A DNA stretch of 64,000 nucleotides from Harmothoe impar (taxonomy: Eukaryota; Annelida; Polychaeta; Phyllodocida; Polynoidae). The DNA lies in the NCBI GenBank assembly GCA_947462335.1, contig OX381708.1:7068001-7132000 (forward strand), given 5' to 3'. The position numbers and the translations under genes are program-made. Positions 24,037 to 58,613 of the stretch are shown piece after piece. The notes below the pieces were generated by a model that searched no databases, was not told where the DNA came from, and was given only the letters and a program-made list of their open reading frames with translations. Within the stretch, counting starts at the first letter, position 1. Every line of letters begins with the position of its first letter.

Positions 24037-24634
24037 CTGAGACAATGTCATTTAGATTTACTTAGGACTTGATAAGTTTCACTACGAGATCAAACTATAC
24101 TGTGTACACATGTGGAGCACAACCCTGAGCTGTGTCCAGAGGATATCATAGCTCGATGTAACTGTAACAAAAACATATTACACACACATTTAACGACTTG
24201 ATGAAGGTAACATCCATGATTCATTCATCTTGTATTTCATGTTTGTCCAAGATTCATAGCTCTTAAGCTTAGAGTATTTGTACTAACAATAGGCTTCTTT
24301 GTGGAAGTATTTTAGCATCAACACTTTTTCAGTGATGGAAGACATTCATTTAAAGCTATTTGCGCTATGTATGCAAGGTAGACACAAGCCAAATTTGTCA
24401 TCAAATAATCATGGACAATGAGAGCACTGCCCACAGGATAAAGTACCTGGTAATAAACAGAGGGCAAACTATTTTCGTCGGTTGAATCGCTTTGCTCTGG
24501 CCTTAGCTTTGAATGAAGGAGCAGACACTTTAGGAGCTGGGGTCATCCTTTTGGATGGTGTGGGCATTGCTAGCAGGGCGGAGAGGTAGTCTCGATCAGC
24601 GTAATCCACCCAGCACTCAGTCTCTATGGGGACT
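24037..24634 (-). repeat. Tandem duplication of kelch tail plus 3' UTR
   Basis: This roughly 590-bp segment matches the following 24635-25195 throughout, e.g. 'tactgtgtacacatgtggagcacaacc', 'catgtttgtccaagatt' and 'gtactaacaa.aggcttctttgtg'. The breakpoint falls inside the coding region, at the codons for V-P-I-E-T-E-C, so a gene tail was copied without its body. Confidence 0.8.
24469..24633 (-). pseudogene. Duplicated kelch C-terminal fragment
   Basis: Encodes ETECWVDYADRDYLSALLAM through to the basic RFNRRK end, nearly identical to the C-terminus of the gene at 25020. It lacks all kelch blades and a start codon of its own, so it is most likely untranslated, lying in the 3' UTR of the 25020 transcript. 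Confidence 0.8.
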
Positions 24635-25019
24635 GAGACAATGTCATTTCGCTTTACTAAATCCTTGCTAAGTTTCACTACAAGAACAAAATAATACTGT
24701 GTACACATGTGGAGCACAACCACAGAACTATGAAGACATTCAATTTTGTTTTATGTGACTGTATCAAAAGCTAAACATATTTGTCTGGTAACACCTGAGA
24801 TTCATTCGTTTTGTTATTCATGTTTGTCCAAGATTATTAGCTCTTAAGCATAGAGCATTTGTACTAACAACAGGCTTCTTTGTGTAAGCATTTCAGCATC
24901 ACTACATGTATGCAAGCTGGGCACAAAGTCCAAATATGTGACCAAATAATCATGGACGGTGAGAGCGCTCCCCACAGAATGTTCTGGGACAAAGAAGCTG
25001 GTAATAAACCGAGGGCAAA

Positions 25020-26444: not shown

Positions 26445-26526
26445 TTATTCCCAGCAAAGTCTGGCTGTCGATTTGTTGTGGTGTGCCTCAAAGGTATCAG
26501 GATATCGAAGCAGTCTCAGAAACGGG

Positions 26527-30096: not shown

Positions 30097-30146
30097 ATAA
30101 AAGCACTCTCCCTTTTATACTCAGGACCTGTGCTGCCAGAAACTAC

Positions 30147-31860: not shown

Positions 31861-31866
31861 TTTATT
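31861..31866 (-). terminator. Polyadenylation signal of kelch gene 32222
   Basis: AATAAA on the minus strand with the full conserved module ('gattgcacaaaaactacagatgtatttagacaagtttatt'), only about 360 bp from the stop codon. Confidence 0.65.
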
Positions 31867-32221
31867 ATGCTCAGGAACTATCTTATATGGGTAAATGCAA
31901 ATTGGCTAACATTATAAGAGTTCTATAGGTGAATGTTTATTAATTTTGCGAAAGTAATTTTGTTTAAGGTATCTCCAGACTGCTTCAGAGACGAGCTAGA
32001 CTGGTAAAACAAACAATGTAATTATGTTTAAGGAGTTTGAGGAACAAAATGGCTTTTATGAAAATTAAACAATGAAATTTGGATCATAGCCAGGGTTTTG
32101 CTGTAGCTGCACAATGTTCCGTCACAAACTTGCCTTCACAGACATGTAATAAATTTAGCTCACAAAAAAGAGTTTCAACCTTAAGGCTGTCAGAACCTTC
32201 ATGATGGCTTAACTAGTGCAC

Positions 32222-33808: not shown

Positions 33809-34136
33809 GTATTCACAGAGATGTTTGGCTGGCACTTTGAAGGCACAGAGGTATCAGGATATAGAAGCAATCTTATAGCTGACTGGAAAGAAAAAGAAAA
33901 CAGAAGCAGACTTAACATCTAGTCAGATGTGGGTAGATACATTATATATTTCATACAGAAAACCTGCATGTTTCTTAATGAACACAGAAATTGAGTTCCG
34001 CATTTGTAGTGTAGAATGGAGTCCTCTAGACGACTGAGGCTCGAACAACAATAAGATTCAAGAAATTCAGTCCTCAAAGGCTGAGACCTTAACAACAACA
34101 AGATTCAAAAACCTCCATCAATGAACCTCTATTAAA

Positions 34137-34429
34137 GGGAGTGTTCATTTATTAATTACAGGGGTGTGTGGTGAGATTTCACGCTCCCTCCCCTCTCGGC
34201 GAAGGCGGCGAAAACTTTTCGCCCCCCCTCTTGAACTATAGTAACGCGCGGGCTTTTGTGCTAAAGGGGCTTCAATTTTTACGCCTCCCCTCAAGAGGGG
34301 TCAGAATTTTTTACGCCCCCCCTCAGGAGGGGCCAGAATTTTTTACGCCCCCCCCCAAAGTAGGGGTCGGAAATTTTTACGCCCCCCCCCAAACCAACCA
34401 GCCCCCCTGTAAATAATAAATGAACTCCC
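34137..34429. mobile_element. G/C-homopolymer MITE
   Basis: Ends GGGAGTGTTCATTTATTAAT and complement 'taataaatgaactccc', flanked by TAAA-like sequence on both sides. The interior has poly-C runs with 'ggggtcagaattttttacgcc' units and the AGTAACGCGCGGGC core. It sits in the 5' region of kelch gene 32222. Confidence 0.8.
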
Positions 34430-34534
34430 TAAACATGTCATCAAGCATTTCACAAAACACACAATGAGGACATGACCCTCTTCCTATGCTAGGCCTCTTG
34501 ACAGATTTCACAAACTACAGATGCATTTAAAAAG

Positions 34535-34540
34535 TTTATT
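34535..34540 (-). terminator. Polyadenylation signal of kelch gene 35497
   Basis: AATAAA on the minus strand in the conserved module ('gatttcacaaactacagatgcatttaaaaagtttatt'). Confidence 0.6.
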
Positions 34541-34899
34541 TATATCTTGGAATGACAGATATCAACATTGGGGAATAAATGCAATTATGATTTTTCTATG
34601 ATAAAGCCTTAATGAACAAGAAGGACTGTCTATAAACTTAGAGACAGCAAATTCATCTTATTTATGTATCAGCAGATTCCTACTGAGACAAATCAGACTG
34701 GTATAACCTGATATTTGATAATTCTTATTTGGATCTTGTTTTGGTTGACTATGACATTGACCTCCGCACCAAGCACATGTAACAAGCAACGCTAGGAGGA
34801 TATTATAGTTTCAAGTTTCAGTTTTCTTAGTTAGGACTCCATTCACCTTCATCAGCTATACTTTTAAAGACTATAGTCTGTCAAAAACTTTGCTGGTAA

Positions 34900-35220
34900 T
34901 AAACATGGGACTAGAGCTATACTTGTAGGTTCTGTAACAAAGATAGTTTCACATAAGGTTTCGTCACTAACTAAGCTTTGCATACAAAGTGCAGCATAAA
35001 CTTGCAAAGTTCACAAAATTGTAACCAACTTCAACATTCACACACAAAGTTGTCACAAACTTCAAACACATAGGTTGTCACACACACACTATTAGCTTCA
35101 TTCATAATGTTGTCACAAATTTCAAGCTTTACAAATTTACATAAAATAATCAAGGTTCTGTCACAATTTAGCTTCATGCAAATAGATCAGCCACAGACTT
35201 AGCTGGTAATCAACATGGAC
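34900..35220 (-). repeat. Degenerate AGCTAAGTTTGTGAC repeat array in 3' UTR
   Basis: Irregular copies of 'acaaagttgtcacaaacttcaaac' and 'gttctgtcacaatttagcttc' fill this part of the 3' UTR. The same motif family occurs at 14390-15480, 20500, 32120, 43440, 46680 and 50790, always downstream of a kelch stop codon. Confidence 0.6.
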
Positions 35221-35329
35221 GGGGCAACTCCTTCATAAGATTCGTACATAAACTTGGCAGGTTTTCCTTGGTTGGGATGAGAGCCCTTCACACATTCAGT
35301 TTCTGTCACACACTTGGATTCATACATCA

Positions 35330-35496
35330 AGTCATGCATATCGTTTGTATCAAGAGAGTTCTCATTGATATCAAGAAGATATTGTAATGTCACCTGAATC
35401 GGACAGGATGGTGCCATTGCATTGAATCTGTCAGTCAATAAACGGGATGAGAGGTATACACATGACGTTGCCATCATCTCCACGCTAAGAAACCAT
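35330..35496 (-). pseudogene. Decayed kelch tail copy downstream of stop
   Basis: 'gagagttctcattgatatcaagaag...gtaatgtcacctgaatcggacaggatggtgccattgca' resembles the last-blade codons of the kelch genes, joined to 'gataaacgggatgagaggtatacacatgac'-like 3' UTR. Homologous to 28141-28488. Confidence 0.55.
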
Positions 35497-37044
35497 CTAT
35501 TTACGTCGGTGAGAGCGCTTCTTTTTAGCCTTAGCTTTAGACCTAGATGAGGGAGCAGTGCTAAAAATATTGTCAGTTGCTTCAGGAGCTGGGGTCATCC
35601 TTTTGGATGGTTTTGGTATCGCCAACATGGCAGCAAAGTAATATCGTTCAGCAAAATCTTCCACAGCACATTTAACTTCTATTGGGAATTTCTCCACTCT
35701 ACATCCACTGATTTTGTCATCCACCTTACTCAGAGGCCACTTGCTACATGCACCCTCCTTCTTTGTATTGGGAAGGTTCTCAGTGATATTCAGGATGTAG
35801 AGGGTATTTTCACTTGGGTCGGACAAAACGATACCATTGCGGTGCATCTGCCAGTCAATGTCATTATTTGCCCAATAGTTCCATTCAGACCACTGGTCAG
35901 TTTTCAGATCATAGTATTGAATCAGCAGATCAGCACACATTATGATGATCACTGGGTCTTTCCCATCAAACGCCATCTCTCGCATCACATCAGCTGGAGA
36001 ATTGACCAACATGGGTGCCTTACTATGCCAGGTGGCTTTCTCCTCATATGGATTGAAGCATCTGAATGCTGAGGAATATACCCGTTTTTCGCCAGTTAAT
36101 GCATACCCACCAGCCACGTAGATGGAGAAGAAGGGACCAGAGCATACACAAGCGCTGTGTCTAAACACGGGAACTGGTAGTTTAGTTGACATAGTAGTCC
36201 ATGTGTTTGTTCCTGGGTCGTACCTTTCAATGGTATCAAGAACTATAACATCTTTAAACTCAGAGTCGCTATCTTGAGGCCCACTATCTTGAGAGTCACT
36301 GTCTTGAGACTCACTATCTTGAGGGTCCCCTTTGTCAGAGTCACAATCATGCCAGTCATTATCCTCAGAGTCACTATCCAGAAAACAATCATCTACGCCT
36401 AGGTCAACTCCACCCAATAGATAAATATACCTGTCATCATGAACAACGGCATAGTCAGCCAGACACTTCTTTTCCATGCCTTTCATTTCACACCATGTAT
36501 ATGTACTTGCATCAAACAAATGCCATGTCTGATCATCTTCGTGAACAACGAGACAATTGTTAACCACAAGCACAGAAGAAATTATGGTGCTGTGAAAACA
36601 TGGATTTTTTCCAACTTCAATTGCTTTCCATGATCCGTCCTCTTGTAGTGTATGCATGGTAGAAGGTATCTTAGCACTAAAGCACACAGGTTGAGGCTTG
36701 GTGCGTACACTGGTTGGTCGCATCATCTTCTTGTGGATGGGCTGGTTGCGGTATTCCTCACCGAGCTGAACATTGTACTGCAAGGAGCCTTCAGAATATA
36801 CCTCCATCTTTTTTACAGCCTCAAGTTGTGCCGGAGTGAGCAAAGAGAACCGTACGTGGCTCATCAAACTATCCAAGTGTTGTTTGCGGTTCTCATAATC
36901 CGCATATAGCCAGTCATTTAGGGTCATAAACAGATCCCATTCACCGTCCATCCACTGCTCAATAGGCACAAGCAGTTCTTCATATGTCATCTTGGCAAGG
37001 CTATTCATCTTTAAAACCTTCATATTAGTCGTTATACCAGGCAT
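35497..37044 (-). CDS. BTB-less half-BACK-Kelch protein with acidic DSQ insert
   Basis: 515 residues from the ATG at 37044; an in-frame TTG lies 12 nt upstream. Starts MPGITTNMKVLK, then half-BACK (TYEELLVPIEQWMDGEWDLF), MMRPTSVRTKPQPVCFS and blades (IYLLGGVD, IERYDPGTNTWTTMSTKLP, FFSIYVAGGY). Basic tail (KAKAKKKRSHRRK). An insert rich in D, S, Q and E lies in the shared propeller loop. The exon begins at 37119 with 'gtagtttctcacagcacagt', clearly homologous to the open phase-0 exon start at 52536. Here the reading is closed by a TAG after nine codons, so the former coding sequence has become 5' UTR. Confidence 0.87.
   Translation of the reverse strand: MPGITTNMKVLKMNSLAKMTYEELLVPIEQWMDGEWDLFMTLNDWLYADYENRKQHLDSLMSHVRFSLLTPAQLEAVKKMEVYSEGSLQYNVQLGEEYRNQPIHKKMMRPTSVRTKPQPVCFSAKIPSTMHTLQEDGSWKAIEVGKNPCFHSTIISSVLVVNNCLVVHEDDQTWHLFDASTYTWCEMKGMEKKCLADYAVVHDDRYIYLLGGVDLGVDDCFLDSDSEDNDWHDCDSDKGDPQDSESQDSDSQDSGPQDSDSEFKDVIVLDTIERYDPGTNTWTTMSTKLPVPVFRHSACVCSGPFFSIYVAGGYALTGEKRVYSSAFRCFNPYEEKATWHSKAPMLVNSPADVMREMAFDGKDPVIIIMCADLLIQYYDLKTDQWSEWNYWANNDIDWQMHRNGIVLSDPSENTLYILNITENLPNTKKEGACSKWPLSKVDDKISGCRVEKFPIEVKCAVEDFAERYYFAAMLAIPKPSKRMTPAPEATDNIFSTAPSSRSKAKAKKKRSHRRK
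36259..36393 (-). repeat. Coding DSQ/DSE-rich repeat
   Basis: Encodes DPQDSESQDSDSQDSGPQDS and flanking acidic residues in the same loop as the inserts of the two neighbouring genes. It is the shortest of the three. Confidence 0.8.
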
Positions 37045-37325
37045 GACGCAGTGCAACCTGGTCGGAGTAAGCCTGAGGATAACACTTTTCTACTCAGGAA
37101 CTGTGCTGTGAGAAACTACCTGAAAGAAAAGAGAGAACGCTTAGCAGCTAGTCAGATGTATGTTCACACATTAGATGAACTGGCATGTAGAATACCACAT
37201 TCTTTTGAATCAAATCGCAGGCTTTGAAGAAAAATCCAAGAAGCCGTGAAAATCTGTTGTCCAGAGGTCATTCTAGATAATTCGCATGGTATGGGGCCCA
37301 TCCACAGACTACTATAGACCCCTCC

Positions 37326-37535: not shown

Positions 37536-38065
37536 TGGTGGCAGTGGTAAAGTAAATGATGAATTGATGTATGTTTTGAGCAACACCAACATCAGGTTAC
37601 ACCAAAAACTGTGAGTAGGAAATCTTCTTCTACAATGCCAATGGTACCACACCAGGAGGAGGAACCATTTACAGTTGACAGTGCCTATACCAATACCATG
37701 TGTTAGATAGATCTACAAGTTGGAGGAAAGTGATTATAGTCCATGCACTACTACCTGTGTATTTGACTTTTGTGACTGTCTATAGTCTATATACTACTAC
37801 CTGTATATTGACTACAGTGACTGCCTATAACTATACAGCCATAGTATAGTAATACCTACACTGTAAAAAAGAACTGTTGTCACTACCTACACTGTGAAAA
37901 AAAACAGTTGTCACAAAAATTCATTTCCACTACCTACACTGAAAAAAAACAACTGTTGTCACTACCTACACTGTGAAAAAAAACTGTTGTCACAAATTTC
38001 ACTTCCATTACCTACACTGTGAAAAAAAAAGACAATTGTTGTCACAAAATTCCAATTCCAACAAT

Positions 38066-38563
38066 ATGGCTGCCAAATACCCTACCATGAACTGGGACAC
38101 CCCCAATAGACCTGAGGTGTTCAAGCTATTCAAGCAACGCATGTCCTTAGTAATTGAGGACAATGAGGTTACCGAGAAGGTCAAAATAGCTCGTAAAATC
38201 AAGATAGGTTTGGGGGATGAGGGTTTGCGCCGGCTAAATGCCTCAGGGCTGAGCGCAGAACACTTAAAAGATCCGGACATGATCTGGAGTTTTTTTGAAG
38301 ACCAACTCAATATCTCTGTACATTTCCGAGTACACCGCCTTGATTTGATGTTTGAGTATGAACAAGACGAAAACGAGTCCCTAGACGAGTTCGTATCGCG
38401 AGCGCGTACCCAGGCGTTACAATGCGAGTTTACTGATGCCGAGCTTCAAGAACGCGTCATCGAATTAGTGATAGCTTCTACGCCAATAGAGCTTTTCTGT
38501 CGAAGCCTGCTTGACAAGGGCAAGGATTTGACACTCGAACAAGTCTTGAAGGAGGGTCGATAG
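38066..38563 (+). pseudogene. Retrotransposon gag (capsid part), ends at TAG
   Basis: From the ATG at 38066 (MAAKYPTMNWDTPNRPEVFK) to a TAG at 38561-38563. The frame is open further upstream into the repeat leader, but this ATG fits the usual gag start. It contains a capsid-like helical segment (LDEFVSRARTQALQCEFTDA). The downstream nucleocapsid and pol continue in exactly the same frame after the TAG. The stop is therefore either a nonsense mutation or, less likely given its position before the zinc knuckle, a readthrough site. Confidence 0.75.
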
Positions 38564-40594
38564 CATGAAGCTGCAACCAAAGGCTCTCTCCGACTGGAAT
38601 CCCTTAAACGACGTTCCCGTAAGGAAGATCCGAAAGTCGACTACGTTCAGAATCATGATGGAAAAGGGAAACGAAAGCCCTGTGGGAACTGCGGCAGAAT
38701 ACACAAGTACCGCGAATGCCCCGCATACAACTCGAAGTGTGGCCACTGCGGTAATATGGGCCACTGGATTGACTGTTGCCACAACAAGAAGTTGGGTCAT
38801 CCAAAGAACAGCGGTGCAACTGCCAGCGCGCCAGACAAGGAGTCACGAAAGAAAGACTACCACAAGAAGAAAGGTCGTAAGAAAGTACATGCCGTACAAA
38901 ACAACGCGTCAAGTACCTCAGAAGACAGCGACAGTGCCGATGAGCCTATCAAAGGGTTCTATGCCGTCACCTTGGGAGACCTTGATGCAGTTGAGCAGGA
39001 CAAAGCATTCACCAACCTTGATGTGAAAATACCAGATGTCAAGGGCAAGCACACGCTCAAGGTGAAGCTTGACACTGGTGCTAATGCTAATGCTCTACCA
39101 CTACGTACCTTCCGTCAGATGTATGGTGACCGCGACCCCCGTGAGATCCTGACGCCTACTACCAAGGCGAAGCTGACGTCGTATTCAGGCAACACCATTA
39201 ACTGCTTTGGAACCATGGCAGTTAGATGCAAGTCTCGAACGTCCGAATGGCACGAGGCTACATTCTACGTCGTTGAAGTCGACGGACCTGTAATACTAGG
39301 ACTACCAACGCGCGAGGCCCTTGGTCTCATCACGATCAACTGTACGAGGGTTACAGTTGACCAGATCACCCGATCTGTGTCCACCGTGGACGATCTGAAA
39401 AGCCGATACCCAGATCAGTTCGATGCCATTGGTCGCTTCAAGGAGCCTGCCAAAATCCTCCTGAAGCCAGACGCTGAGCCGCACATTAACCGACCTCGTA
39501 AGTCCAACGTCAATCTGTTACCAAAGATAAAGGCAGGACTCAAGGAGATGGAGGAAACAGGCGTGATCCGCAAGGTTACCAAGCACACTGACTGGTGCTC
39601 CAGTCTTGTGTACAGCACAAAGAAAGATGGTAGTCTCAGGATATGTCTGGATCCTAAATTTCTGAACAATGCCATAAAGCGATGTCCTCATAAAATGCCT
39701 ACCCTAGAAGAGGTCAATCCAAAGTTCGCTGGTGCCAAAATCTTCAGTAAGCTAGATGCCAAAGCAGGCTACTGGAGTGTACCACTCCAGGAGAAGAGTC
39801 GATTGCTAACCACCTTCCGTACTCCGTTTGGACGATATTGTTTCAGGAGATTGCCTTTCGGCCTGAACATAAGCCAAGATATCTTCCAACAACGGATGGA
39901 CGAGTTTCTAGAGAATCTCGATGGGTGTGTGGGCATAGCTGACGACATTTGCGTGTTCGGTCGTACCGACGAGGAACACGACAAGCATCTGATTGCATTG
40001 ATGGATGCAGCCAAAGAGTATGGACTGGTCTTCAACTCCCAAAAGTGTACCATCAAGGCCAGCTCTATATCCTTCTTTGGCAATACGTACAGTGCAGAAG
40101 GGATATCACCAGATCCTGCCAAGGTACAAGCTATCAATGAAATGCCAGAACCAAAGAATCCGGAAGACCTACAACGATTCTTAGGGCTACTGACGTACCT
40201 TGGGACATTCATTCCCAACCTCAGCTCACTTGCCGCTCCGCTGAGAGATCTCTTGAAGAAGGACTCTGTCTTCATTTGGGAAGAAACTCATACGATCGCA
40301 GTCAAGAAGCTGAAAGAAGTCATGACATCCCGTATCGTCGCTTTCTACGATGTTACCAAACCCATCAGCATAGAAGTTGATGCGTCGATGAAGGGATTGG
40401 GTGCATGTCTAGTACAGGAAGGAAAACCAATTGCCTTCGCATCCAAGACACTTACCACAACACAGAGCAACTACAGCAACATAGAGAGAGAAATGCTTGC
40501 TGTTGTCTATGGGGTTGAACGATTCACATCATACCTTTACGGCAGATCATTTACAGTAGTGAGCGATCACAAGCCGTTAGAGATGATTGCGTGA
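38564..40594 (+). pseudogene. Retrotransposon nucleocapsid-protease-RT-RNase H, ends at TGA
   Basis: In the same frame as gag. Two CCHC-like zinc knuckles lie at 38681-38780 (CGNCGRIHKYREC and CGHCGNMGHWIDCC). The protease active site KLDTGANANALPL is at 39065-39103. RT has SLRICLDPKFLN and the catalytic IADDICVFG, an ADD-type variant of the YxDD box. RNase H begins SIEVDASMKGLGACL. The frame is cut at TGA 40592-40594, just after HKPLEMIA, inside the RNase H/connection region. Coding similarity resumes at once in the same frame. Confidence 0.85.
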
Positions 40595-42164
40595 AAAGCA
40601 CTCTCATCCGCCCCGCCACGACTGCAGCGTATGTTACTGAAGATACAAGGTTACGACTACAGTGTTTTGTACCGTCCAGGGAGCCAAATGGTCATTTCTG
40701 ATACACTTTCCCGGTTGCCTAACCCGAAAGATACAGGAAATGTCACGCTTGATGTCAGAGTCGATGATATCACCCTGGATCTGATACACTTCAGTCCCGA
40801 GAAACAACACCACCTGAGAACCAAGACCAGGGAGTGTCCAGTGTTGAACGCACTCGCAGAAGTCATCTATACTGGATGGCCGGAAAGCATCAAAGAGCTT
40901 GCTACTGACCTGCGGCCTTACTGGAGCTTCCGTGACACGCTAGGAATAGAGGATGGTGTGATCTTCAAGGGAAAGCAGGTTGTGATACCACCCTCGATGC
41001 AGCCTGAGCTACTGAAGCAACTACACGTAGGACACCAGGGTATCGAGAAAACACGATTGTTAGCAAGAGAAACCATCTACTGGCCTGGGATAAACGATGA
41101 TATCAGCAAAATGATCAAGACCTGCCCACTTTGCCAGGAGTTCCAGGAAGCAAACACGAAAGAACCAATGTTACCCACAGAGGTTCCTGATGGACCCTGG
41201 AAGGTACTAGGTACTGATCTGTTCGAGATAAAAGGCAAGATGTTTATCATTGTGTCTGACTATTATTCGAAATTTCCATTTGTGAAGGAACTTTCCTCAG
41301 CAACCTCTGCCTCCGTAGCAAGCTACGTAGAAGGTATATGCAGTGTGCTTGGGAAGCCTAACACCATCCGATCTGACAATGGACCCCAGTACACAGGAGA
41401 AGCCTTCCAGAAAACCTGCAGAGAGTGGGAGATCCAGCACGTAACATCATCTCCTGAATTCCCACAATCCAATGGATTTATAGAGCGACAGATTAAATGG
41501 ATTAAGCCAATACTAAAGAAAGCAATGAAGTCAGGACAAAACATCCAAAAGGTTCTCTTAAACATCAGAGCAACCCCCATAGACAATGTCATTCCGTCGC
41601 CAGGGGAGCTGCTGATGAAGCGAAAACTAACAGCAAGTCTTCCATTCCGCAGCGAAGAAACTGCAAGCGGACAAGTGAAAGAAAGAATGCTGGAACGGCA
41701 GACCAAAAGCAAGGCTTACCATGATAGAGGAGCGAAAGACTTAGCACCACTATACCCTGGGCAACGGGTCAGTGTGTACGACAAGTCGACACATGCTTGG
41801 CGTCCAGGACAGGTCATTGAGCCAAGTGATGCAGCACCTCGATCATATATCGTGGAGAACCAGAGAGGAAGTCTGGTTAGGCGTAATCGAGTCCATCTAC
41901 AAGAGAGACCAGAAGGAAGACCATTGGAGATTCAGCAGCCGACAACACCGGCCATCACATCCGCCTGTGTCTCCAAGGCCGTCACATCCGCCTACCTCAG
42001 ATACGTCTCCAAGGCTGCAACGACCACCGTCACCACAACTGGCTCCGAAGCATCCACCTCCGCCAAAACCACCATCGAGGCCGTTAGATGCACCAGCCAG
42101 TCATGCGGGAACAACTACCCGGAGTGGACGGGTGTCAATAATGCCGAGCAGATATAAAGACTAA
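40595..42164 (+). pseudogene. Retrotransposon integrase region, with 3' frameshift
   Basis: Same frame as RT. Shows the HHCC zinc-binding region (HVGHQGIEKTRLLARETIYW then CPLC) and the DDE catalytic core (GTDLFEIKGK, IRSDNGPQYTGEAF, SNGFIERQIKW). Near 41900-41990 coding character moves to another frame, which carries a proline-rich stretch and a typical Gypsy end (SGRVSIMPSRYKD) stopping at 42162-42164. The original frame instead runs to 42157 with unrelated residues. One indel is therefore likely. Confidence 0.85.
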
Positions 42165-45779: not shown

Positions 45780-46894
45780 TGTACTCTGAAATTGCAAGTA
45801 GAACTGTTGGTAAATACAAAACTGTCGATTCATCTACAACCTTGATCTCTATCAGAACATGTCTATAATAATACGGCTTCTTAATTTTAATGGACAAAGT
45901 TATGTGACTGTTTTGGTCAATTAAGTCAGTGACAACAGTTTTGCATTATGTTTTTGGAGATTCCTGGACCTAACTGGTACAAAACTAATAACATTATCTT
46001 GTACCATAAGAGTACATGATTTATGTTTGATTTCTTTGACAAGCATCAAACATATTTTCAGGTTTGGGAAAAGTAATAACTGACTTACTTTTGTAGGCGA
46101 AAGAAGTAAACCAAATTATAACTCCCTACTTTTGAGTTCCTGAGCGCCTGTGACCCGCCCCAAACCCAGACTTAAAGCCTAATTTTAGATTTATACATTT
46201 CAGGACATAATTATCCGACAATTTAGTAACTGCCATGTCATGAACTGATAATGTAAACAATGTGTTAAAGCATTTCTACAATGTTATCTATTGTGATCTT
46301 ATATTCTTATGAAAACTCTGTTCATAAGGCAATCCACTTCTTTAAGAAATTAAATTAGGCCCCACCAAACAACCTCTTTTTCTTGGGGCTTAGATCCAGG
46401 ATTTTATAGTATTTTCTTTAAACACTTCATAATTTAACAATTTGCTATATGAAGTATGAAAGTCATGGCATCGGAGACCCTTTCCCAGTATTTTTCCACT
46501 GTACCATGTACCAAAAAAAACACATGAAATCAATTAACGACTAGAAACAAAGTAAGTAAAGTTAACTGCTAACTTCCACATTCATATTCTTTGAACTTAA
46601 AAGACTAAGACGAAACATATGAGCAACCAAATTAGCGGGGAATAAACATTTATAAACCAGACAAGAGCTTCACAAAGTTATGACACAAATTTAGCTGCTA
46701 ATCTACACGGACGGGCCAACAGCTTCGTACAGGTTGGGAGTTCTGTCAAACTTTCATACGATAACTTCAACTGTATTAATAGCAACCGATAGATCTTAAT
46801 AGGGGGCAGGTAATGCACCATGTCAAAACTAATAGTTTGATAAGTTCTGTCAGATACTGATGAGCATGACTAGTTATCGAGAGTTTGAGATTTT
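45780..46894 (-). other. 3' UTR of kelch gene 47081
   Basis: Non-coding. Ends near a kelch fragment at 46895. Contains degenerate 'acacaaatttagctgctaat' motifs near 46680. Confidence 0.5.
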
Positions 46895-47108
46895 TACGGG
46901 AAAATCTTTCATCCCCCGGCCACGTAGATGGAGAAGAAGTCACCACACACGCGCTGTGCCTACATAGTGGACCTGGCAGTTTAGTTGACATGGCAGTCCA
47001 TGTAGTGGTTCCAGGGTCATATCTTTCAATTGTATCAATTGCTGTATTCTTTCGGTCCTCTCCTGAGAATTCATCTCCAACTACTGCATACAGATATCTA
47101 TCAATGCG
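46895..47108 (-). pseudogene. Kelch propeller fragment overlapping the gene end
   Basis: In its own frame it encodes RYLYAVVGDEFSGEDRKNTA and IERYDPGTTTWTAMSTKLPG, homologous to 47728-47945 of the neighbouring gene. It covers about one and a half blades and is truncated at both ends. The last codons of gene 47081 overlap it in a different frame. Confidence 0.8.
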
Positions 47109-48544
47109 GAGACGGGCATTGCTTTGAGAGCTTTCGTCATTAACCGATTGGCATGGTCATTTTTCTTTGGGTTTGAGATTTTTGTCTTAAGCACGACTTT
47201 ACTCCCGAATGGAGGAGGACCTCTCCTTTTTGAGGGTGAGGGAAAGGCGAGCATTGCAGCCATGTAGTTGGGTTTAGCACAAAGAGCACAACATCCAGCC
47301 TTGAGTGGAAACTTCTCAGCTGGAGAGCCAAAGATAGCGTCATCCACCTTGCTCAATGGCCACTTTGCACACGCTCCCTTTCTAAGAGTCTCAATTTCAT
47401 TTGAAAAGTCTCCACAGATGTTGAGGACGTAGAGTGTATTCTCACGTGGATCGGCCAGGACGGCGCCGTTCTCGTGCCACCTCCAGTCAATCTCAGGGTG
47501 TGGCCAGGCTTTGGAGAGTGACCACTGGTCAGTTTTCAGATCGTAGATCTGAATCATCAGATCCCCACACATAACGATGATCACCGGGTCTTTCCCGGCA
47601 AATGCCATCTCTCGCATCACATACGATTTGCTTGCTATCAGCATTGGTGCTTTTTTATGCCAGGTCGCTTTCTCCTCATATGGATTGAAGCAGTTCATTG
47701 CTGGTGAATAGGACTGTTTACGCTTCATGGAAAATCTCTTCCACCCCCCAGCCACGTATATGGAGAAGTGGGGGCCTGAGCACACACAAGCACTGTGCAA
47801 ACACAGGGGATCTGGTAGTTTAGCTGACAAAACAGTCCACGAGTCGGTTCCAGGGTCGTACCTTTCAATAGTACTGGTTGCCTTACATTTACGGTCCCCT
47901 CCTTTGAATTCATTTCCACCTAGTGCATACAGATATCGATCATCGTGGACAAGCGCAAAACTTAGTTTATGGCTCTTCATATTTTGCATTTTATGCCACT
48001 TTAGTGTGCTTGCATCAAACACATGCCATGACTGAGTTGGACCAGCTTCGGCAATAACCAGGAAGTTGTTGAACTCAATCACGGCACTCACTCCAAAGAT
48101 GAATTCTGGAATGCCGGGTACATTGATATCTGTCCACTTTCCATCCTCTTCCAGCGCAGAAACAGAGTAGGTATACATATGACGAATACACACAGGTTGA
48201 GGTTTGCTGCGTACACTGGTGGGCCGCATCATCCGTTTATGGATTGGTCGACTGTGATACTCCTCACCAAGCTGAACGTTGTATTTCCATGACCCGTCAG
48301 AATAAATCTTCATCTTCTTTACAGCCTCAAGCTGTGCTGGAGTGAGCAGAGAGAACCGTACATGGCTCATCAGACTGTCTAAGTGCTGTTTGCGGTTTTT
48401 ATAATCTACATCCAGCCAATCCTTGATGATGAGAAATAGATCCCATTCGCCGTCCATCCACTGCTTGATAGGGACTACAAACTGTTCATAGGTCAGCTTG
48501 GCATACCCATGAAGCTTGAAACCCTTCTCCATATTGTCCGCCAT
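47081..48544 (-). CDS. BTB-less half-BACK-Kelch protein with altered C-terminus
   Basis: 487 residues from the ATG at 48544 (MADNMEKGFK, replacing EYITTNM). Half-BACK (LTYEQFVVPIKQWMDGEWDL), MMRPTSVRSKPQPVCIR, then blades (YLYALGGNEFKGG, IERYDPGTDSWTVLSAKLPD, HFSIYVAGGW). The normal basic tail (KTKISNPKKNDHANR) does not end in the usual R-R-K stop. The frame continues for about 17 residues (KALKAMPVSALIDICMQ) into the duplicated propeller fragment, read out of its kelch frame. The acceptor is just above 48615, and a TGA in frame before the ATG supports the start. Confidence 0.86.
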   Translation of the reverse strand: MADNMEKGFKLHGYAKLTYEQFVVPIKQWMDGEWDLFLIIKDWLDVDYKNRKQHLDSLMSHVRFSLLTPAQLEAVKKMKIYSDGSWKYNVQLGEEYHSRPIHKRMMRPTSVRSKPQPVCIRHMYTYSVSALEEDGKWTDINVPGIPEFIFGVSAVIEFNNFLVIAEAGPTQSWHVFDASTLKWHKMQNMKSHKLSFALVHDDRYLYALGGNEFKGGDRKCKATSTIERYDPGTDSWTVLSAKLPDPLCLHSACVCSGPHFSIYVAGGWKRFSMKRKQSYSPAMNCFNPYEEKATWHKKAPMLIASKSYVMREMAFAGKDPVIIVMCGDLMIQIYDLKTDQWSLSKAWPHPEIDWRWHENGAVLADPRENTLYVLNICGDFSNEIETLRKGACAKWPLSKVDDAIFGSPAEKFPLKAGCCALCAKPNYMAAMLAFPSPSKRRGPPPFGSKVVLKTKISNPKKNDHANRLMTKALKAMPVSALIDICMQ

Positions 48545-48615
48545 GTATTGCCGGCCTATTTGGGGGTCTGAATATCAAAGAGGCTTTCACTGTCCTATTC
48601 CTGCCGTGAAATTGC

Positions 48616-51069: not shown

Positions 51070-52536
51070 TTATCGTCTACGCTTTGAACGCTTTCCCTGA
51101 GAAGTTTTACCTACAGTTGGAGGGGCAGTCTCAATTGGTCTTGTGGATGGTGTAGGCATAGCGAGGACTACAGCCAAGGAATCTGGCATGGCCCGATGTC
51201 CCCAACATCTAGACTCAATTGGGAATGTTTCTACTGAAACCGCAGAAACATCTTGATTGATCTTTCTCAGCTGCCACTTTGCCCACACTGCTTCCTTAGG
51301 CTTCTTGAACCGTCCCTCTACGATGTTCAGGACATAGAGTACATTCTCAGTTGGATCAGGCAGGATGTAGCCTTTCCTGTGCCACCGCCAGTCAATGCCG
51401 GCATGCGCAATGTTAGTGCTAATGCCATTCACCACTGACCACTGGTCGCTTTTCAGGTCATAGTACTGAATCATTAGATCATCACATACAGTGATAATTG
51501 CTTTATCTTTGCCATCAAAGGTCATCTCTTGCATTACATATGGAACATTTTGAATCAACATCGGGGCTTTCTTATGCCAGATTGCTACCTCTACATTTGG
51601 ATTGAAGCAATTCATTTCAGATGAATAGTCACCCTCTTTGGAGAGTCTGTCCCACCCCCCAGCCACGTAGATGGAGAAGAATGGCCCCGAGCACACACAG
51701 GCACTTACTTTGGCCAGTGGCTTCGGTAGGCTAATTGACATCACAGTCCATGTGTCGGTTCCAGGGTCATATCTCTCAATGGTGTCAAGAACCTTTGACT
51801 CATCAGAGTCCCTTACGTTTACACTTCCTCCTATCGAATAAATGTATCGATTATCATGCACAAGGGTAAAATTAGCTCTAGGCTGTTTCATGCCTTGCAT
51901 CTTTGACCACTCGAATGTAAATGGGTCAAACACATACCAGGTTGTTTTATGGTACTCATCTGCAACAACGATCAGAAAGTTGTTGAACACAATCATGGCA
52001 TGAGGTCCGAGAGAAAAATCTTGAATTCCGGGAACATCAATTTCCCTCCATTTTCCGTCCTCCTCCAGTGTATACATACAAGGAGCCTGCTCCTCACTGA
52101 AGCATACAGGTTGAGGTTTACTGCGTACACTGGTAGGACGTAGCATCTTTTTATGGATTGGCCGCTTCTGATAGTCCTCACCAAGTTGGATATTGTATTT
52201 CCATGACCCGTCGGAGTACATCTTTATCTGTTTTACAGCTTCAAGCTGTGCCGGAGTGAGCAGAGAGAAACGTACGTGGCTCATCAGACTGTCCAAGTGC
52301 TGTTTGCGGTTTTCGTAATCTGCATCCAACCAATCCTTGATGTTGAGAAACAGATCGTATTCACCACCTATCCACAGTTTGATGACAACTAACAGTTGTT
52401 CACATGTCACATTAGCATGCCCACGGACCTTTAAAATCTCATCTATATTGGTCGTTATGTATTCTATGGTAGACTCAATATCAATATTGTCCTGGCTGTC
52501 CTTGGCTTTTTCAGAAGCTGTGCTGTGCGCGATGGC
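51070..52536 (-). CDS. Kelch exon of the fusion gene (half-BACK-Kelch)
   Basis: 489 codons including the stop. The acceptor is 'ttttttctctccag' directly above 52536. The exon starts AIAHSTASEKAKDSQDN in phase 0 and has no ATG until the M of SLMSHVRF, well inside BACK, so it needs an upstream coding exon. Residues IEYITTNIDEILK preserve the BACK sequence lost or turned into start codons in its siblings. MLRPTSVRSKPQPVCFS, blades (YIYSIGGSV, IERYDPGTDTWTVMSISLPK, FFSIYVAGGW) and a basic tail (QGKRSKRRR) follow. Possible ATGs upstream (e.g. 52575) lie on the intron side of the acceptor. Confidence 0.88.
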   Translation of the reverse strand, partial: AIAHSTASEKAKDSQDNIDIESTIEYITTNIDEILKVRGHANVTCEQLLVVIKLWIGGEYDLFLNIKDWLDADYENRKQHLDSLMSHVRFSLLTPAQLEAVKQIKMYSDGSWKYNIQLGEDYQKRPIHKKMLRPTSVRSKPQPVCFSEEQAPCMYTLEEDGKWREIDVPGIQDFSLGPHAMIVFNNFLIVVADEYHKTTWYVFDPFTFEWSKMQGMKQPRANFTLVHDNRYIYSIGGSVNVRDSDESKVLDTIERYDPGTDTWTVMSISLPKPLAKVSACVCSGPFFSIYVAGGWDRLSKEGDYSSEMNCFNPNVEVAIWHKKAPMLIQNVPYVMQEMTFDGKDKAIITVCDDLMIQYYDLKSDQWSVVNGISTNIAHAGIDWRWHRKGYILPDPTENVLYVLNIVEGRFKKPKEAVWAKWQLRKINQDVSAVSVETFPIESRCWGHRAMPDSLAVVLAMPTPSTRPIETAPPTVGKTSQGKRSKRRR

Positions 52537-55500
52537 CTGGAGAGAAAAAAACATAAATTGTGACACACACCTCATTTCTGAGCCTTTTAAAGGCAATAAG
52601 TATAGTGCTGGTAGCTACCAGGGGTTACAATGGAAGCCTCGCAGGAGCTACATTTCCATGTCGGTTTCTTCTCTATTGACATGCAATAAATGGAAAAGTT
52701 CACTCATCGGAGTCCATTTACATTGCTTTCACTCGCAGAACTTTGGTCTAGAGTTTCGGTACAATGTTAACTGCAAAGCTTTTGCGTAGTTTCTCTTTCT
52801 TTCTGTATTACTTCATCCATGCAATCCAGACTAATTGGTTATGCTTTTCAAGATTGATGGTAGGCCTTTGATGACCATGTCTATAAGAATTTTGGTATTG
52901 TCTATGCTAGTGGAAGGGTCTAGTCTTGTCTCTAGCTGTTGATACATATTGTGTCTCGTGGCAGGCATTGATTAATTCATAAATTGATCGATGTAACAAC
53001 CCTGCACATGTTAAGTACTTAACGGGACTGCGTCAATTTAGCAAGGAAGTCTTCCATAAGCGGTGGTAATTTCCATTAATACGGGTATTTAAATTTGTAT
53101 TTGATGATCTCACCATTCCCCCACCCGCCCACGCATCTTTTCAGGGAACGAGATATCAAATCAAATAAAGTGTGCCATGGCATAACTAGAAATTTAAGAT
53201 GAGGATAAATCAATAGCATAAATAAGTGAACCAGAGCCTGGTGCAAGTTATATACAAGGAACCAAAGTATCATTGATTAGCATGTATATGCCCTGGCTTA
53301 GTAGAGTAACAATATTCAGACCTTTTATTCAGCTTATAGAATTGTCCTAATGTCTTGTCCCTTAGGCTTTTATGTGAGAATTTACAGTAGACATTATCAC
53401 ACTTTCAAGTGCTTGATTGGGTTGTTAAACGTCTAAGTTGGCAAGGGGTCAGCCACAAATAGTGGTAGTCTGCCTGGTTAAAGAATTTTCCCAAGCTGCA
53501 AGATATCATATGAAATAGTTCATGATAGACCCTAGTCCTCATTTTAATTTCTTACCTGTGCTGCCCCTTGACTTGGTGTCGTTACTCTTGGTAATTTGGC
53601 ATGTTCCGGCATGTAGTAACGGGGCTCGTCAGGCAGAGGGTTGTGGCAGCCCTCACACGTGTTGTAGTCAGAGCTCAGCTGTCCACAGGTGGGGCATACC
53701 GCATACTTCCCTTCCACTCTCTGTAAAAAACATAAGTTGTATGAGACACATTCCGTTTCCTTTCATGAAAGCATTGACTCCACCTGTAAGCCCAACCCCA
53801 GAAATGCCTAGCGTTAACCTCTCTGATAAGCATATAAGATATTTGGGAACATTTTTCCAATTTATCTCAAAGGAAACATTTTTTATATGATGATTCCCAA
53901 GTTGGAGCCAATTATAATTATATGAGCAGAATAAAGCATTATTTACCAGAACAAGGTTGGCTTATCAGAGGCTTTACGGTATATAAAATAAGATATTTAA
54001 AGTTTCTCTATAATTTAATATATTAAATCTATAAAGCCTACTTCTTTTTTTCAAAAGTGTTTTATTGGGTAAAAGATAACAAATACAAAAGTAGATGCAT
54101 CATCCTAGCTTAGGCGCATTGCCTTGCTTCCACTAGGTCCCCTTCATAGACAATTTTGACTGATATGCTTATTCTCCAATAGTCATTAGGAGCCCCATTG
54201 GAATTTATTTGTCTTAATCAAAAGGGTTTTCGGGTGTTTTTGAGTGATGGGCGTTATATACCTACCACTTTTTGGGGTCGGCCAGCTGTAATATTTGCTT
54301 CGGTTATTTTTGCCAATAAAGCTGCAACAGTAAGAAAAAAAGCAACTTAAGAAGCAGCATGAGATGGTTGATCGTTTTAGTTTCATAATCAACATGTGAC
54401 ACAAAGGAGAAAGACTAAAATAGGTTTCCTAGAATTTATACATATGGCACCTGGTTGCACTATAGTAAACCAGAGCTTCGCAGAACAAGATCCAGTTTTG
54501 GCATGGTGTGATGAGAACTGCCCTTTCAGAGCTTACTCTAAATTCCCGCTTTAAATTGATAACAATCATGCCTATAAAAAAGGGTGCAGGGGTTTTAAGT
54601 TTGCTTCAGTAATAAAATCCCTTAATATCAGGACTCCCAAATTGAGTGAGGAGTGCGGGTTATATGTGAGATGTGAGTTATACATGGGAAGCTACAGTAT
54701 TGGATTTACTTCTGCACATGAAATAGATATGACAATGGTAATGGAGGAAATGATTTCAGCCAGACCTCGGACACCAGGGAGGTGTCTGATAATGGACATG
54801 ATCTGCCATCCACCTTCAAGGGTCAAGAAGTCTTTAAGCAGGGCAACTCACCGCCGGATCTGGGATCATAAGCTCTGGAGCCCACCTGCCCTTGCCCTGG
54901 TGTTGTTACTCGTGGTATCTTGGCATGTTCCGGCATGTAGTAGCGGGGCTCGTCAGGCAGAGGGTTGTGGCAGCCCTCACAGGTGTTGTAGTCAGGGCTC
55001 AGCTGTCCACAGGTGGGGCATACCGCATACTTCCCTTCCACTCTCTGCAGAAAACATAAGTTGTATGAGACAGATTCTGTTTCATTTTATGAGAGAATTA
55101 GGGAGTGAAGTTGACTCAACCTATAAGCCTACTGCATGCTTCCCTTCCACTCTCTGGAGACAAAGATGTGTAGGATAAGGAGACAGTATATTCAATGTGA
55201 AAGATATATCTGGAACATCTATCATGTATTTATACCCTTTACATGTGTAAATAAGGAACTTTAATTCATGGACACTTTCTGGTGTAAAGAAAGGGGGAGG
55301 GTTATTCAGGGGTGGATGCTTATTATGTCACATGGTAATGAATATTATCCTAGTTGATGTGAATATTGAGCTACTTATTTGATAGAAGTTATTTGATACT
55401 GAAATTATAACACTTGAGATTTCTCAGTTACAGGGTGTTAAAAACCTACCACTTTATGGGTCTTCTTGACGCTGGCTGCCTTTTTATTTCCTTCTGATTT

Positions 55501-58031
55501 CTTCATGCTAAATCCAGTTGTTGTTACTAATATCCCTGCAACTGTGAAAGAAAAGCAAGTGTGAGTGGCTGGTTCTTAATTGTACCTTTCAGTAAAAATT
55601 AGGGATGTCATCGATACCCCCTACATTGAAATACAGACATTTCATCTATTCTGATTATTGCATCGAGAAAACCATCATATCGATACACCCTTTGATCCCT
55701 GAAAAGCTGGAAGAGCCCCCTTTTCAAAACTTGAGGATTTTGTAAATATTCGACAAAGAACAAAAGATATCATTCAAAAGGCAATGCAAGCCTGGAAATA
55801 AGGTTAACAGTGCCCAACAGTTCATTTTAAAAAGGCTTACAAATGATTCTAGAAAAAATATCAATCCCTGACCATAAAATTTGTGGTCTTTGGATAGAAC
55901 AGGATGTATTAAAATATGGTATGTCGTGCAGCAAAGTCACATGCAGTAAAATACACGTTTGTGTTGCTGATTTTAAGTTATGTCCTACTATATTTTGACA
56001 TCAACAAAAATCTGAGAATCGAGACCAAAAATCGCGATAATCAGAATCAACAAAAATGAGATGTCAATGACATCCCTAGCAAAAATAGCACATATGAAAA
56101 GGGCTTAAATGGGTTACCCATGATCTATACACCTTGTCACATAAAATGTCTTAGTCCATAAGAATTTGTATATGTCCTAGACTATTACTAAAAGCTCTTT
56201 AACTGCTCAGCTTTAATAGCTGTTGAAGGTTGCATGAGGATACACCCAGCACGTGGTGTGGCCAACGTCACCGTGTCAATTCCCGCATTTGAGTTGACAG
56301 TGTTATTGTAACATGTCTTCGGTCCGGATACTGGAACACCATTTTTTTCTTATTTGTGTCACGCTCGCACATGGGTGTTTATTTAAAACGAAGTTATGGT
56401 ATACTTCAAAATTAAAGTACCCATAGCCAGACCCTATGTGTGGGTTATAACATTTTCTCAAAGTCTAGGTGCAGGTTTTACGAGGATGAGGGGTGTGAGT
56501 AGTACGAAAGCCATGTATAAATTACAGGGATGAAAGTCGACTATGTCAAAAAAACTTTAAGATATAACATACCTCATAACTACATTATAGAACACTATGA
56601 ATGTTTATGCATCTATAGACACATATGTAGTGCTGTGCAGCAGGATTTGTCATGTCTATATTCTCCTGGACATCATCTCCTGCTGAGGACAAGCATTTGT
56701 CATGTCCATGTGGTCATGGACGTTATCTCCTGCTGAGGAGAATGAGAAATCTGTCCATACACTCTCCATGCATAGCACCTTGGTTTCAGTGGCTAAGCCT
56801 CATGTGAAGAGTGTAAATGGATAGGACTATAGAGGAGATACAGGACTTCAAGCTTTCTCAAGTTAACTTGAAATTGGCTGAGAAAAACTTGACACTGAGA
56901 TCAGTGTGGTGTAGTCTGTCTGTGTATGTGTAGGACCACTGAGGATGAACCAGTGATGATTCTGACGTCTTATCATAGGATTACACACACAAAATAAGTT
57001 TGATTGAGTTTATATTGAGTAATTATCAAATATATCCTAAATGAGCCAACAGCTAAATATCCTAATTATATTTTTTGTGATTGAAAAAAAACTTGATTTC
57101 AGGGAAAAACTTAAAGACTTTCATCCCTGAAATTAATATATGTACTCCATAACACCAAAGACAAAACAAGCACAAAAGGAGGGTTCAAGCAACATAGAGG
57201 AAAGCTAAACAACTGCATAATTAATTTTTAGCAAAAGCATAAGGCCATAAAAAAGTTTTATCCTAGTAAAATGGCCAAAAATAAACAGGGTCGGTAGGTT
57301 AGACCTTTTATTTTTATTTTTCGTTTTTTTGTGAAAAAAATGTGAATTTTAGTGGTAAAAACGCTAAAATATTATAAATCTTTAAAAAAGAGAAAATGCC
57401 TTAAAAACATTAGGGTCGGCCCCAAAATTGGAGGGTCGGATGGAATACCAGAACACAAGTTTTTATTTTTTAGGCCTAAACAAAAGCAAATAAATTTATG
57501 TATTCTAGCTAACTACCATTACCAATTTAGTAGAAAATATAGGTAAGTACATCAGAATGATCAAATCCTGAGTTTTAGGAAATCAATATACCAAAAACAA
57601 AAGCATGGGTGAGGCCAAAAGAAAAAAAAAGGTTTGTTTCAGGTCACCTGACCGACCCTATCAAAACAGGCCGGACCCTAAGTTTTTTTAATGCAATTTT
57701 GAAGAAATTCCACATTTTTACCCTTTTAGGAGCAATTTTCGGGTGTTAGGAGAGGCTTGCTAGTACTTTCATGTTATAAAAAAAAAGTTAAATTTTTTTT
57801 AAAAATCCAACCTTCCGACTCTACATTTTCTGCCCATGTTACCTGGAACAAACCTTTTTTTTTTGAGTAATAGGAAAAGAAAAGTATAGTGTAGTTACCA
57901 GCTCGCACCTCTGTCTTGTTAATGGTGATGTCACAAGCAGTGCGGGAACAAACGAAGGAATCGGAGAAAGCAAAGTGTGGAATTAAACGCGCTTCTTTAA
58001 GCTCTCCAGAGCACTTGATATCTACTTCCAT
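51070..58031 (-). CDS. Zinc-ribbon x2 / half-BACK / Kelch fusion protein (six coding exons)
   Basis: Model with exons 57899-58031, 55450-55535, 54852-55044, 54266-54321, 53556-53720 and 51070-52536. All junctions have GT donors and AG acceptors. Phases agree (1, 0, 1, 0, 0) and the total of 2100 nt gives 699 residues plus stop. The start ATG at 58031 is the first after an in-frame TGA. The N-terminal part has a cysteine pair (VCSRTAC), then lysine-rich KKSEGNKKAASVKK, then two copies of a C4 zinc-ribbon, CPTCGQLS-DYNTCEGC (C-X2-C-X9-C-X2-C), each followed by PLPDEPRYYMPEHAK. The kelch exon adds half-BACK and the propeller. The BTB domain has thus been replaced by zinc ribbons. I do not recognise a named family for the N-terminal part, and the partner or target is unknown. 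Transcript evidence would settle the junction at 53556/52536. Confidence 0.68.
52537..53555 (-). other. Intron before the kelch exon
   Basis: Acceptor at the low end, GTAAGA donor at the high end. AT-rich, with 'gattgggttgttaaacgtc', the dispersed repeat also at about 11990. No exon seen inside. Confidence 0.55.
53556..53720 (-). CDS. Zinc-ribbon exon, second copy
   Basis: 165 nt, acceptor 'tgttttttacag', donor CAG|GTAAGA. Reads RVEGKYAVCPTCGQLSSDYN, then TCEGCHNPLPDEPRYYMPEH and ends TTPSQGAAQ. Starts and ends in phase 0, matching the kelch exon at 52536. Nearly identical to 54886-55044. The high identity, with intron flanks also alike, indicates recent duplication. Confidence 0.8.
54266..54321 (-). 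CDS. Short linker exon, second copy
   Basis: 56 nt, acceptor 'ttactgttgcag', donor GTG|GTAGGT. Enters in phase 1 and leaves in phase 0, reading ALLAKITEANITAGRPQKV. The equivalent of 55450-55535: both end in KV with the same donor, and it is shorter by 30 nt. Confidence 0.65.
54852..55044 (-). CDS. Zinc-ribbon exon, first copy, with two donors
   Basis: Acceptor 'ttatgttttctgcag'. Reads RVEGKYAVCPTCGQLSPDYN, then TCEGCHNPLPDEPRYYMPEH and TTPGQGQ. Two donors are visible: CAG|GTGGGC after 54886 (159 nt, phase 0) and GCG|GTGAGT after 54852 (193 nt, phase 1). The long form fits the phase-1 linker exon at 54321. The short form would fit the phase-0 kelch exon directly and give a single-ribbon isoform. 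A truncated third copy of the exon start (AGAGTGGAAGGGAAGCATGC, minus strand) is at about 55136-55155. Confidence 0.78.
55450..55535 (-). CDS. Lysine-rich linker exon, first copy
   Basis: 86 nt, acceptor 'cacagttgcag', donor GTG|GTAGGT. In phase 1 after the exon at 57899 it reads ILVTTTGFSMKKSEGNKKAA and ends VKKTHKV. Basic, possibly nuclear-localising; this is inferred from composition only. Confidence 0.65.
55536..57242 (-). other. Intron of the fusion gene
   Basis: No exon recognised. Near 56640-56740 a roughly 60-bp segment is duplicated ('tttgtcatgtc.at...tggac.t.atctcctgctgagga'). A decayed copy of a 'gggatgtcat' inverted-repeat element may span about 55601-56082: 'agggatgtcatcgat' at the left and 'atgacatccct' at the right. 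Confidence 0.5.
57243..57476. mobile_element. GGCC-end MITE, TAA target duplication
   Basis: GGCCATAAAAAAG at the left and 'tttttaggcc' at the right, flanked by TAA (57240-57242, 57477-57479). The interior has 'gggtcgg' motifs like its relatives. It lies within the intron of the fusion gene. Confidence 0.7.
57613..57870. mobile_element. GGCC-end MITE, right end decayed
   Basis: Starts GGCCAAAAGAAAAAAAAAGG, then 'tttgtttcaggtcacctgaccgaccc'. The right end is 'catgttacctggaacaaacc' plus poly-T. Closely matches 8371-8622. Confidence 0.75.
57899..58031 (-). CDS. First coding exon of the fusion gene
   Basis: 133 nt, beginning with the ATG at 58031 (MEVDIKCSGELKEARLIPHF) and ending at donor CTG|GTAACT in phase 1. 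Contains CSRTACDITINKTEVRA. A TGA in frame 16 codons upstream supports the start. An upstream untranslated exon is probable. Confidence 0.65.
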
Positions 58032-58287
58032 TTGCCAACACCAGTCAAATAGGGATTCAGTGCAGGTGGGGGTTCAAAGCGTGAAATTTTCCCATACCAT
58101 AGCATTAATACACACCAAAGGGGCCAAACCAATGAAACCATAAATAAATCATGTCTGAAACCTGAAACTCGCAAACATCAGAATCCATAATATGTTCAAG
58201 CTTTGGAAGTTAACCAGTGAATACTGTGCACATTTTTCATCATCTCCCCCTGCATTGGCAGAAATCATAGTGCCTTTGTTAACAGGA

Positions 58288-58336
58288 TGCATGGATGCAG
58301 CCCCGGCGAGTAACTCGCCAGGACTGCATTCAAGTT
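58288..58336. repeat. Foldback GATGCAG hairpin unit
   Basis: 'gatgcagccccggcgagtaactcgccaggactgcattc' forms a hairpin. Same family as 18896-19033. It directly abuts the MITE that follows and may have replaced that element's left end. Confidence 0.7.
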
Positions 58337-58337
58337 T

Positions 58338-58613
58338 GAAGGGGGGGGGGGTAAAAAATTTGGACCCCTTGACCCGGGGGGGGGGGGGGGGTAAAAAATT
58401 TAGACCCTTCTGGGGAGGGTCAAAAAAATTCAACCTGTTTTCAGTGAAAAAGCCAGCGCGTTACTATGCTACAAAGAGGCGCGAACGTGCACAATTTTCT
58501 GCCTGCCGGGGGGGGGGGGGGGGGGTAAAAAATTTCGACCCCTCTAGGGGGGGAGGGGGTGAAAACATTTCGCGAAATCTCCCCCCCCCTTGTTGTTCAA
58601 AAATGAGCACTGC
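58338..58613. mobile_element. G/C-homopolymer MITE, left end missing
   Basis: The right end 'ttgttcaaaaatgagcactgcc' matches the family terminus. The interior has long poly-G runs and the AGCGCGTTACTATGCTACAA core. The left terminal repeat is absent. Confidence 0.7.

Follow-up and report, generated by a model that had tools for sequence, protein, structure and literature searches.

The window analysed here is a 64,000-nucleotide stretch of the genome of the polychaete Harmothoe impar (C5:7068001–7132000, with window position x corresponding to C5 7068000+x), and the genome searched with it comprises 1,511,831,793 bases in 736 contigs. The minus strand of the window carries nine BTB-less kelch cassettes and two BTB-kelch genes. 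One of the BTB-kelch genes (11797–9851) contains BTB, BACK and kelch by Pfam, with BACK covering profile positions 1–100, and the other (7436–5619) was found by tblastn. Eight of the nine cassettes are sibling BACK-kelch exons distributed over 16274–48615 (low ends near 16274, 21654, 25020, 28489, 32222, 35497, 43736 and 47081); the one nearest to the locus described below (47081–48615, minus strand) has its own Met, lies outside the ribbon-kelch gene and was used as a control. Three adjacent cassettes (28489–37089) contain acidic DSQD-type repeat inserts of differing length within the propeller. Truncated kelch pieces are found beside intact cassettes at 24472–24675 and 46776–47156, and retroelement-like ORFs, judged by eye to include CCHC, reverse transcriptase and integrase-like parts, occupy the plus strand between two cassettes at 37943–42164.

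The ninth cassette (51070–52536, minus strand) encodes a kelch propeller preceded by most of BACK, opens with a phase-0 acceptor and has no Met before residue 85. Upstream of it on the same strand lie a linker exon (exon 2, 55450–55535, phase 1 to 0), a first zinc-ribbon exon (exon 3, 54852–55044, CPTC..CEGC, phase 0 to 1), a second linker exon (exon 4, 54266–54321, phase 1 to 0) and a second zinc-ribbon exon (exon 5, 53556–53720, 165 bases, symmetric phase 0-0). Exons 3 and 5 carry one ribbon apiece, CPTCGQLS(P/S)DYNTCEGC. With a further exon at the 5' end, the minus-strand chain 58031–57899, 55541–55450, 55044–54852, 54321–54266, 53720–53556 and 52536–51070 has end phases of 1, 0, 1, 0 and 0 and encodes 701 amino acids plus a stop. 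Shifting the exon 2 acceptor six bases later, to give an exon from 55535, brings the arithmetic to 700 codons including the stop; this acceptor was preferred over that of 55541 from its likeness to exon 4, judged by eye, as was the resemblance between the ends of the two linker exons. The sequence-only reading, which had described two C4 ribbon exons joined in phase to a start-less kelch exon with a total of 700 codons, is thus borne out on the exons and phases, and on the total when the acceptor giving an exon from 55535 is used. Phase agreement by itself is weak evidence, as it arises by chance once in three junctions and some choice of donors exists. Likewise, when 72-base stretches were sampled on the plus strand of the window, 29.7% of them were open in a given frame.

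Comparison of the ninth cassette with its siblings reveals how it departs from them. Shortly ahead of the kelch part, each of the nine cassettes has an acceptor in which 11 or more of 15 positions are pyrimidines. Eight of them carry a Met on or close to the position homologous to TTNM, the exception being the cassette that starts at 52536. In seven of the eight Met-bearing siblings, one or more stops in the kelch frame lie between the acceptor and the Met, and in the cassette starting at 26526 the stop immediately precedes the Met. The eighth sibling (start 17794) is open from its acceptor yet has its own Met. A phase-0 acceptor therefore leads into the kelch frame without a stop only in the 52536 and 17794 cassettes, of which only the former has no Met of its own. 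The acceptor-stop-Met pattern recurs in both of two further siblings found elsewhere (L034 and L035). The eight siblings in the window, all of which combine a Met of their own with an acceptor that looks spliced, make up a BTB-less family of kelch proteins. A lola-like arrangement, in which shared 5' exons are joined to alternative coding 3' exons, was also considered for the cluster and is unsupported, because stops separate acceptor and Met in seven of the eight siblings.

The ribbon-kelch locus is duplicated in inverted orientation 0.68 Mb away, at C5:6438868–6446566, where the region of about 6.435–6.448 Mb is collinear with the window locus in blocks of 79 to 98% identity. The duplicate retains exons 2–6 and all their splice dinucleotides, and it encodes a single open frame with the same C-terminal residues, which raises the chain above chance phase agreement. 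Intron lengths differ between the copies, that between exons 4 and 5 being 545 bases in one locus and 3,911 in the other. The duplicate could represent either a paralogue or an allele left unmerged, and in the latter case it would be less independent as evidence. At a larger scale, the kelch cluster lies in a large inverted duplication (C5:6.44–6.48 and 7.08–7.12 Mb), and further mirrored pairs, for example at 6.73 and 7.03 Mb, suggest nested palindromes or unmerged haplotypes.

Differences between the two copies are consistent with protein-level constraint on exons 2–5 taken together and on the kelch exon. Exons 2–5 pooled show 4 nonsynonymous (N) and 6 synonymous (S) differences (ratio 0.20, p 0.014), an estimate that depends on these 10 differences. 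By exon, they amount to 1 N and 2 S in exon 2, 2 N and 0 S in exon 3, none in exon 4, where the 54 compared bases are identical, and 1 N and 4 S in exon 5. The two ribbons of the window, compared with each other, differ by 2 N and 5 S (ratio 0.11, p 0.007); the two ribbons of the duplicate are 99% identical to each other, so that ribbon counts may be blurred by gene conversion. The entire kelch exon shows 9.5 N and 29.5 S between the copies (ratio 0.088, p 6.5e-13). This strong constraint bears on the possibility that the locus is a decaying chimeric remnant in a duplicated cluster, as might be suspected from the large duplications of the region, its retroelement ORFs and the truncated kelch pieces in it. 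Together with the retention of the splice dinucleotides of exons 2–6 in both loci and of four invariant cysteines in every ribbon copy, it makes such decay very improbable.

Within the kelch exon, the segment ahead of the first Met (residue 85) is of particular weight. Residues 1–83 differ between the copies by 1.0 N and 7.0 S over 198.8 and 50.2 sites, respectively (binomial p 9e-5), and residues 84–488 by 8.5 N and 22.5 S. The codons ahead of the first Met are thus under protein-level constraint, which argues that kelch residues 1–83 are translated from upstream. The 72-base 5' segment of the exon has one mismatch and no gap between the copies; it is by itself no proof of selection, because the flanking intron is equally conserved (2 mismatches in 301). 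Across the five cassettes whose 5' segments were compared with second copies, all four siblings are interrupted by stops in the kelch frame and two of them (at 45 kb and 33 kb) also show gaps in the copy comparison, whereas the segment of the ninth cassette is open, in phase and free of indels. These observations weigh on the alternative that the kelch exon is translated as in its siblings, after an untranslated 5' part and from a non-AUG or internal start, with the ribbons unrelated to it. In its favor, every one of the eight window siblings has a Met of its own behind a 5' part that looks spliced, and a non-AUG start within the exon may exist; however, neither copy retains the sibling Met, no other Met comes before residue 85, and the residues ahead of that point evolve as protein. 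We consider translation from such a start improbable and favor a coding join to an upstream exon.

The ribbon exon is the nearest recognized coding exon that could supply this join, being on the same strand and in phase 0, and its donor is near-consensus by eye (CAG|GTAAGA), with the GT kept in both copies. Signals for transcript ends are less one-sided. Both copies have an ATTAAA just past the second ribbon exon's donor (53548 in the window; C5:6444262 in the duplicate), an AATAAA at 53329 is present in the window only and missing from the intron of the copy, and no AATAAA follows the kelch stop within roughly 1.4 kb in either copy. These features leave room for a ribbon-only transcript, and hence for the alternative that the ribbons form a separate short gene and the kelch exon is spliced to another upstream coding exon. 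Left unspliced, the second ribbon exon soon meets a stop past its donor (AAQVRN*), the joined transcript is itself read from genomic exons, and a short, unrecognized exon would escape a homology search. Nevertheless, the conserved, in-phase donor, the lack of the AATAAA from the copy's intron and the lack of a BTB match upstream make separate genes unlikely.

The search for such an upstream BTB was performed in two ways. With the BTB part of the 11797–9851 gene as the query, the best 150 of 676 candidates were scored genome-wide, a procedure that could miss weaker BTB exons. None of these 150 matches lies between C5:7079797 and 7135349, and none between C5:6340101 and 6482410, around the copy. 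All but four of them extend to query residue 168 or farther and so run beyond residue 160, the first of AIAH, which fits genes that hold BTB and BACK in one exon. In addition, tblastn at E 0.1 found no BTB on the minus strand upstream up to C5:7152000 (7132001–7152000 holds plus-strand ones only) and none in the copy region 6430001–6460000. A BTB exon farther upstream of the kelch exon was thus found by neither the genome search nor tblastn. The motif AIAH also follows the acceptor of the kelch exon, and KAIAHIEEYITTN of the intact BTB-kelch gene has AIAH in the same frame when matched by eye; the two AIAH motifs were unpaired in the MAFFT alignment.

The 5' end of the gene requires revision. 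The first exon drawn in the sequence-only reading (57899–58031, minus strand) is rejected as drawn and probably is no exon of the ribbon-kelch gene, since its donor GT (GCTG|GTAACT) reads CT in the copy and the alternative donor GAG|GTGCGA is also lost there. The high identity near it belongs to a block of about 450 bases (57892–58345), wider than the exon itself; the block is 92–97% identical to the copy and ends sharply at 57891. The true promoter or first exon may lie within this block. The ORF that contains the drawn exon has a weak Pfam match to NOT2_3_5_C, which reaches past the exon. Given the loss of the exon 1 donor from the duplicate, translation more likely starts at the in-frame ATG 55506 (MKKSEGNKKAASVKKTHKV) in exon 2, whose acceptor and donor are conserved in the duplicate. 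From this ATG, arithmetic on the exon coordinates gives a product of 645 amino acids, with which the translation of the copy is consistent. The fusion claimed from the letters alone accordingly stands in one part and falls in another: the coding join of ribbons to kelch has three lines of support, namely the duplicate locus, selection ahead of the first Met and the failure to find a BTB match, while the 5'-most exon is unsupported. We conclude that the ribbon-kelch fusion is probably real.

The product shares part of its plan with the KLHL-type adaptors, which have the order BTB-BACK-Kelch and are defined by BTB-Cul3 binding. In the kelch exon, the Pfam BACK match covers profile positions 18–100 of 103 and Kelch_1 matches at 1.9e-14. 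The structure model (pLDDT 74.9) matches the fold of the KLHL17 kelch domain at E 5.6e-15 and also full-length KLHL22. The 52536–51070 exon thus has the kelch propeller of the Cul3 adaptors and, like them, the ribbon-kelch gene combines a propeller with most of BACK. It differs in lacking the N-terminal BTB and approximately the first 17 BACK profile positions, leaving BACK incomplete, and in having two zinc ribbons in front. Cul3 binding by KLHL proteins canonically needs BTB and the start of BACK; as both are missing, the encoded protein should have lost canonical Cul3 recruitment and would not be a canonical Cul3 adaptor. By comparison, the KLHDC group consists of kelch proteins without BTB, as here, and the ribbon-kelch gene differs from it in keeping most of BACK and adding the ribbons.

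A genome search with the ribbon core returned six matches at E ≤ 0.001, every one of them on C5. They comprise the window pair, the opposite-strand pair at 6439397 and 6444090, and two distant matches at 26564155 (80% identity) and 26593097 (61%). Four cysteines in two CxxC knuckles are invariant in all six, the arrangement of a C4 zinc ribbon, and zinc binding is predicted from it. Pfam zinc-ribbon families score below threshold, the best being DZR (15.8 bits, cut-off 27.3) and Zn_ribbon_3 (15.7 bits, cut-off 27). The ribbon model (pLDDT 67.2) has no PDB match at E 0.001, with NZF-type ubiquitin binders appearing at E of about 2 to 4. NZF or RanBP2-type zinc fingers likewise have a short C4 knuckle pair, and the TAB2 NZF is in the fold list at a non-significant E of 3.0; the ribbon differs in its spacing, C-x2-C-x9-C-x2-C, and no RanBP2-type family is in the Pfam list at E ≤ 1. 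In a protein database that seemingly does not cover animals, the ribbon part had no match and the kelch exon two weak ones, one named mutarotase. Searches of an open-access literature collection yielded no report of a kelch and zinc-ribbon fusion architecture, and nothing on SENP6 and SENP7 together with a zinc ribbon.

The two distant matches answer the question of whether an unfused relative exists, and place it in the same genome and on the same chromosome. The first is a ribbon exon of 243 bases, phase 0-0 (C5:26564149–26564391), whose ribbon is 80% identical over 45 residues and which lies on the same strand as SENP7-like pieces. An Ulp1-type peptidase in three pieces, FLNDVIIDFYLK, HWYLAVICYP and PQQTNFSDCGIFVLQYVE, is located about 4.9 to 7.2 kb downstream; placed end to end, these match SENP7 (PDB 3eay) at 1.5e-31 and Peptidase_C48 at 2.7e-10. 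From their order and strand, the ribbon exon and the peptidase exons would belong to one gene. The window ribbon differs from the SENP-side ribbon exon by 12.5 N in 106.5 sites and 21.5 S in 28.5. The window ribbon exon is thus related to one beside the local exons of a SENP6/SENP7-type SUMO protease, and the ribbon-kelch window differs from these proteases in having no peptidase C48 match: the C48 catalytic domain has seven matches at E ≤ 0.001 in the genome and none in the window. The 70 kb surrounding the SENP-like gene contain nothing that matches linker exons 2 and 4. The second ribbon-bearing locus (C5:26593091–26594941) begins with a ribbon exon (26593091–26593255) of 165 bases in phase 0-0, as in the second zinc-ribbon exon of the window. 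There, in contrast to the ribbon-kelch gene, the ribbon leads in phase to a 111-base exon and an exon with sub-threshold matches to HTH_Tnp_1 and BrkDBD. On this one chromosome, the ribbon is thus found in three different settings, each time as a symmetric exon; the direction of copying is a proposal.

Taken together, our analysis favors a chimeric gene, in which a shuffled symmetric zinc-ribbon exon was placed twice ahead of a BTB-less BACK-kelch exon. We hold this reading to be probable, with confidence lowered slightly by the ATTAAA common to both copies and by the AIAH point. The source would be a phase 0-0 C4 zinc-ribbon exon homologous to that upstream of the SENP6/7-like catalytic exons on the same chromosome. 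This exon, with a small linker exon, would have been placed twice in tandem upstream of the phase-0 kelch acceptor. Splicing would then yield one protein, 645 amino acids long from ATG 55506, that begins with a short basic stretch and continues with the two zinc ribbons, a BACK domain lacking its start and a kelch propeller. The propeller has most likely kept its ability to bind a protein partner, and a different protein contact would come from the ribbons. Contact with SUMO or ubiquitin is a guess prompted by the putative donor gene. A bolder proposal is that the ribbons replace BTB in a Cul3-independent kelch receptor, delivering targets to the SUMO-chain or ubiquitin machinery through a module that it has in common with a SENP6/7-type protease, the ribbon being a mobile 0-0 exon that seeded at least three genes on the chromosome; we regard this extension as rather doubtful.

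If the chimeric reading is true, a selected kelch protein with shuffled zinc-ribbon exons in the place of BTB would represent a clean domain replacement by a symmetric exon, with the probable donor gene remaining on the same chromosome as the fusion. Furthermore, such a fusion would make a new recruitment surface, formed by the ribbons, a testable question.
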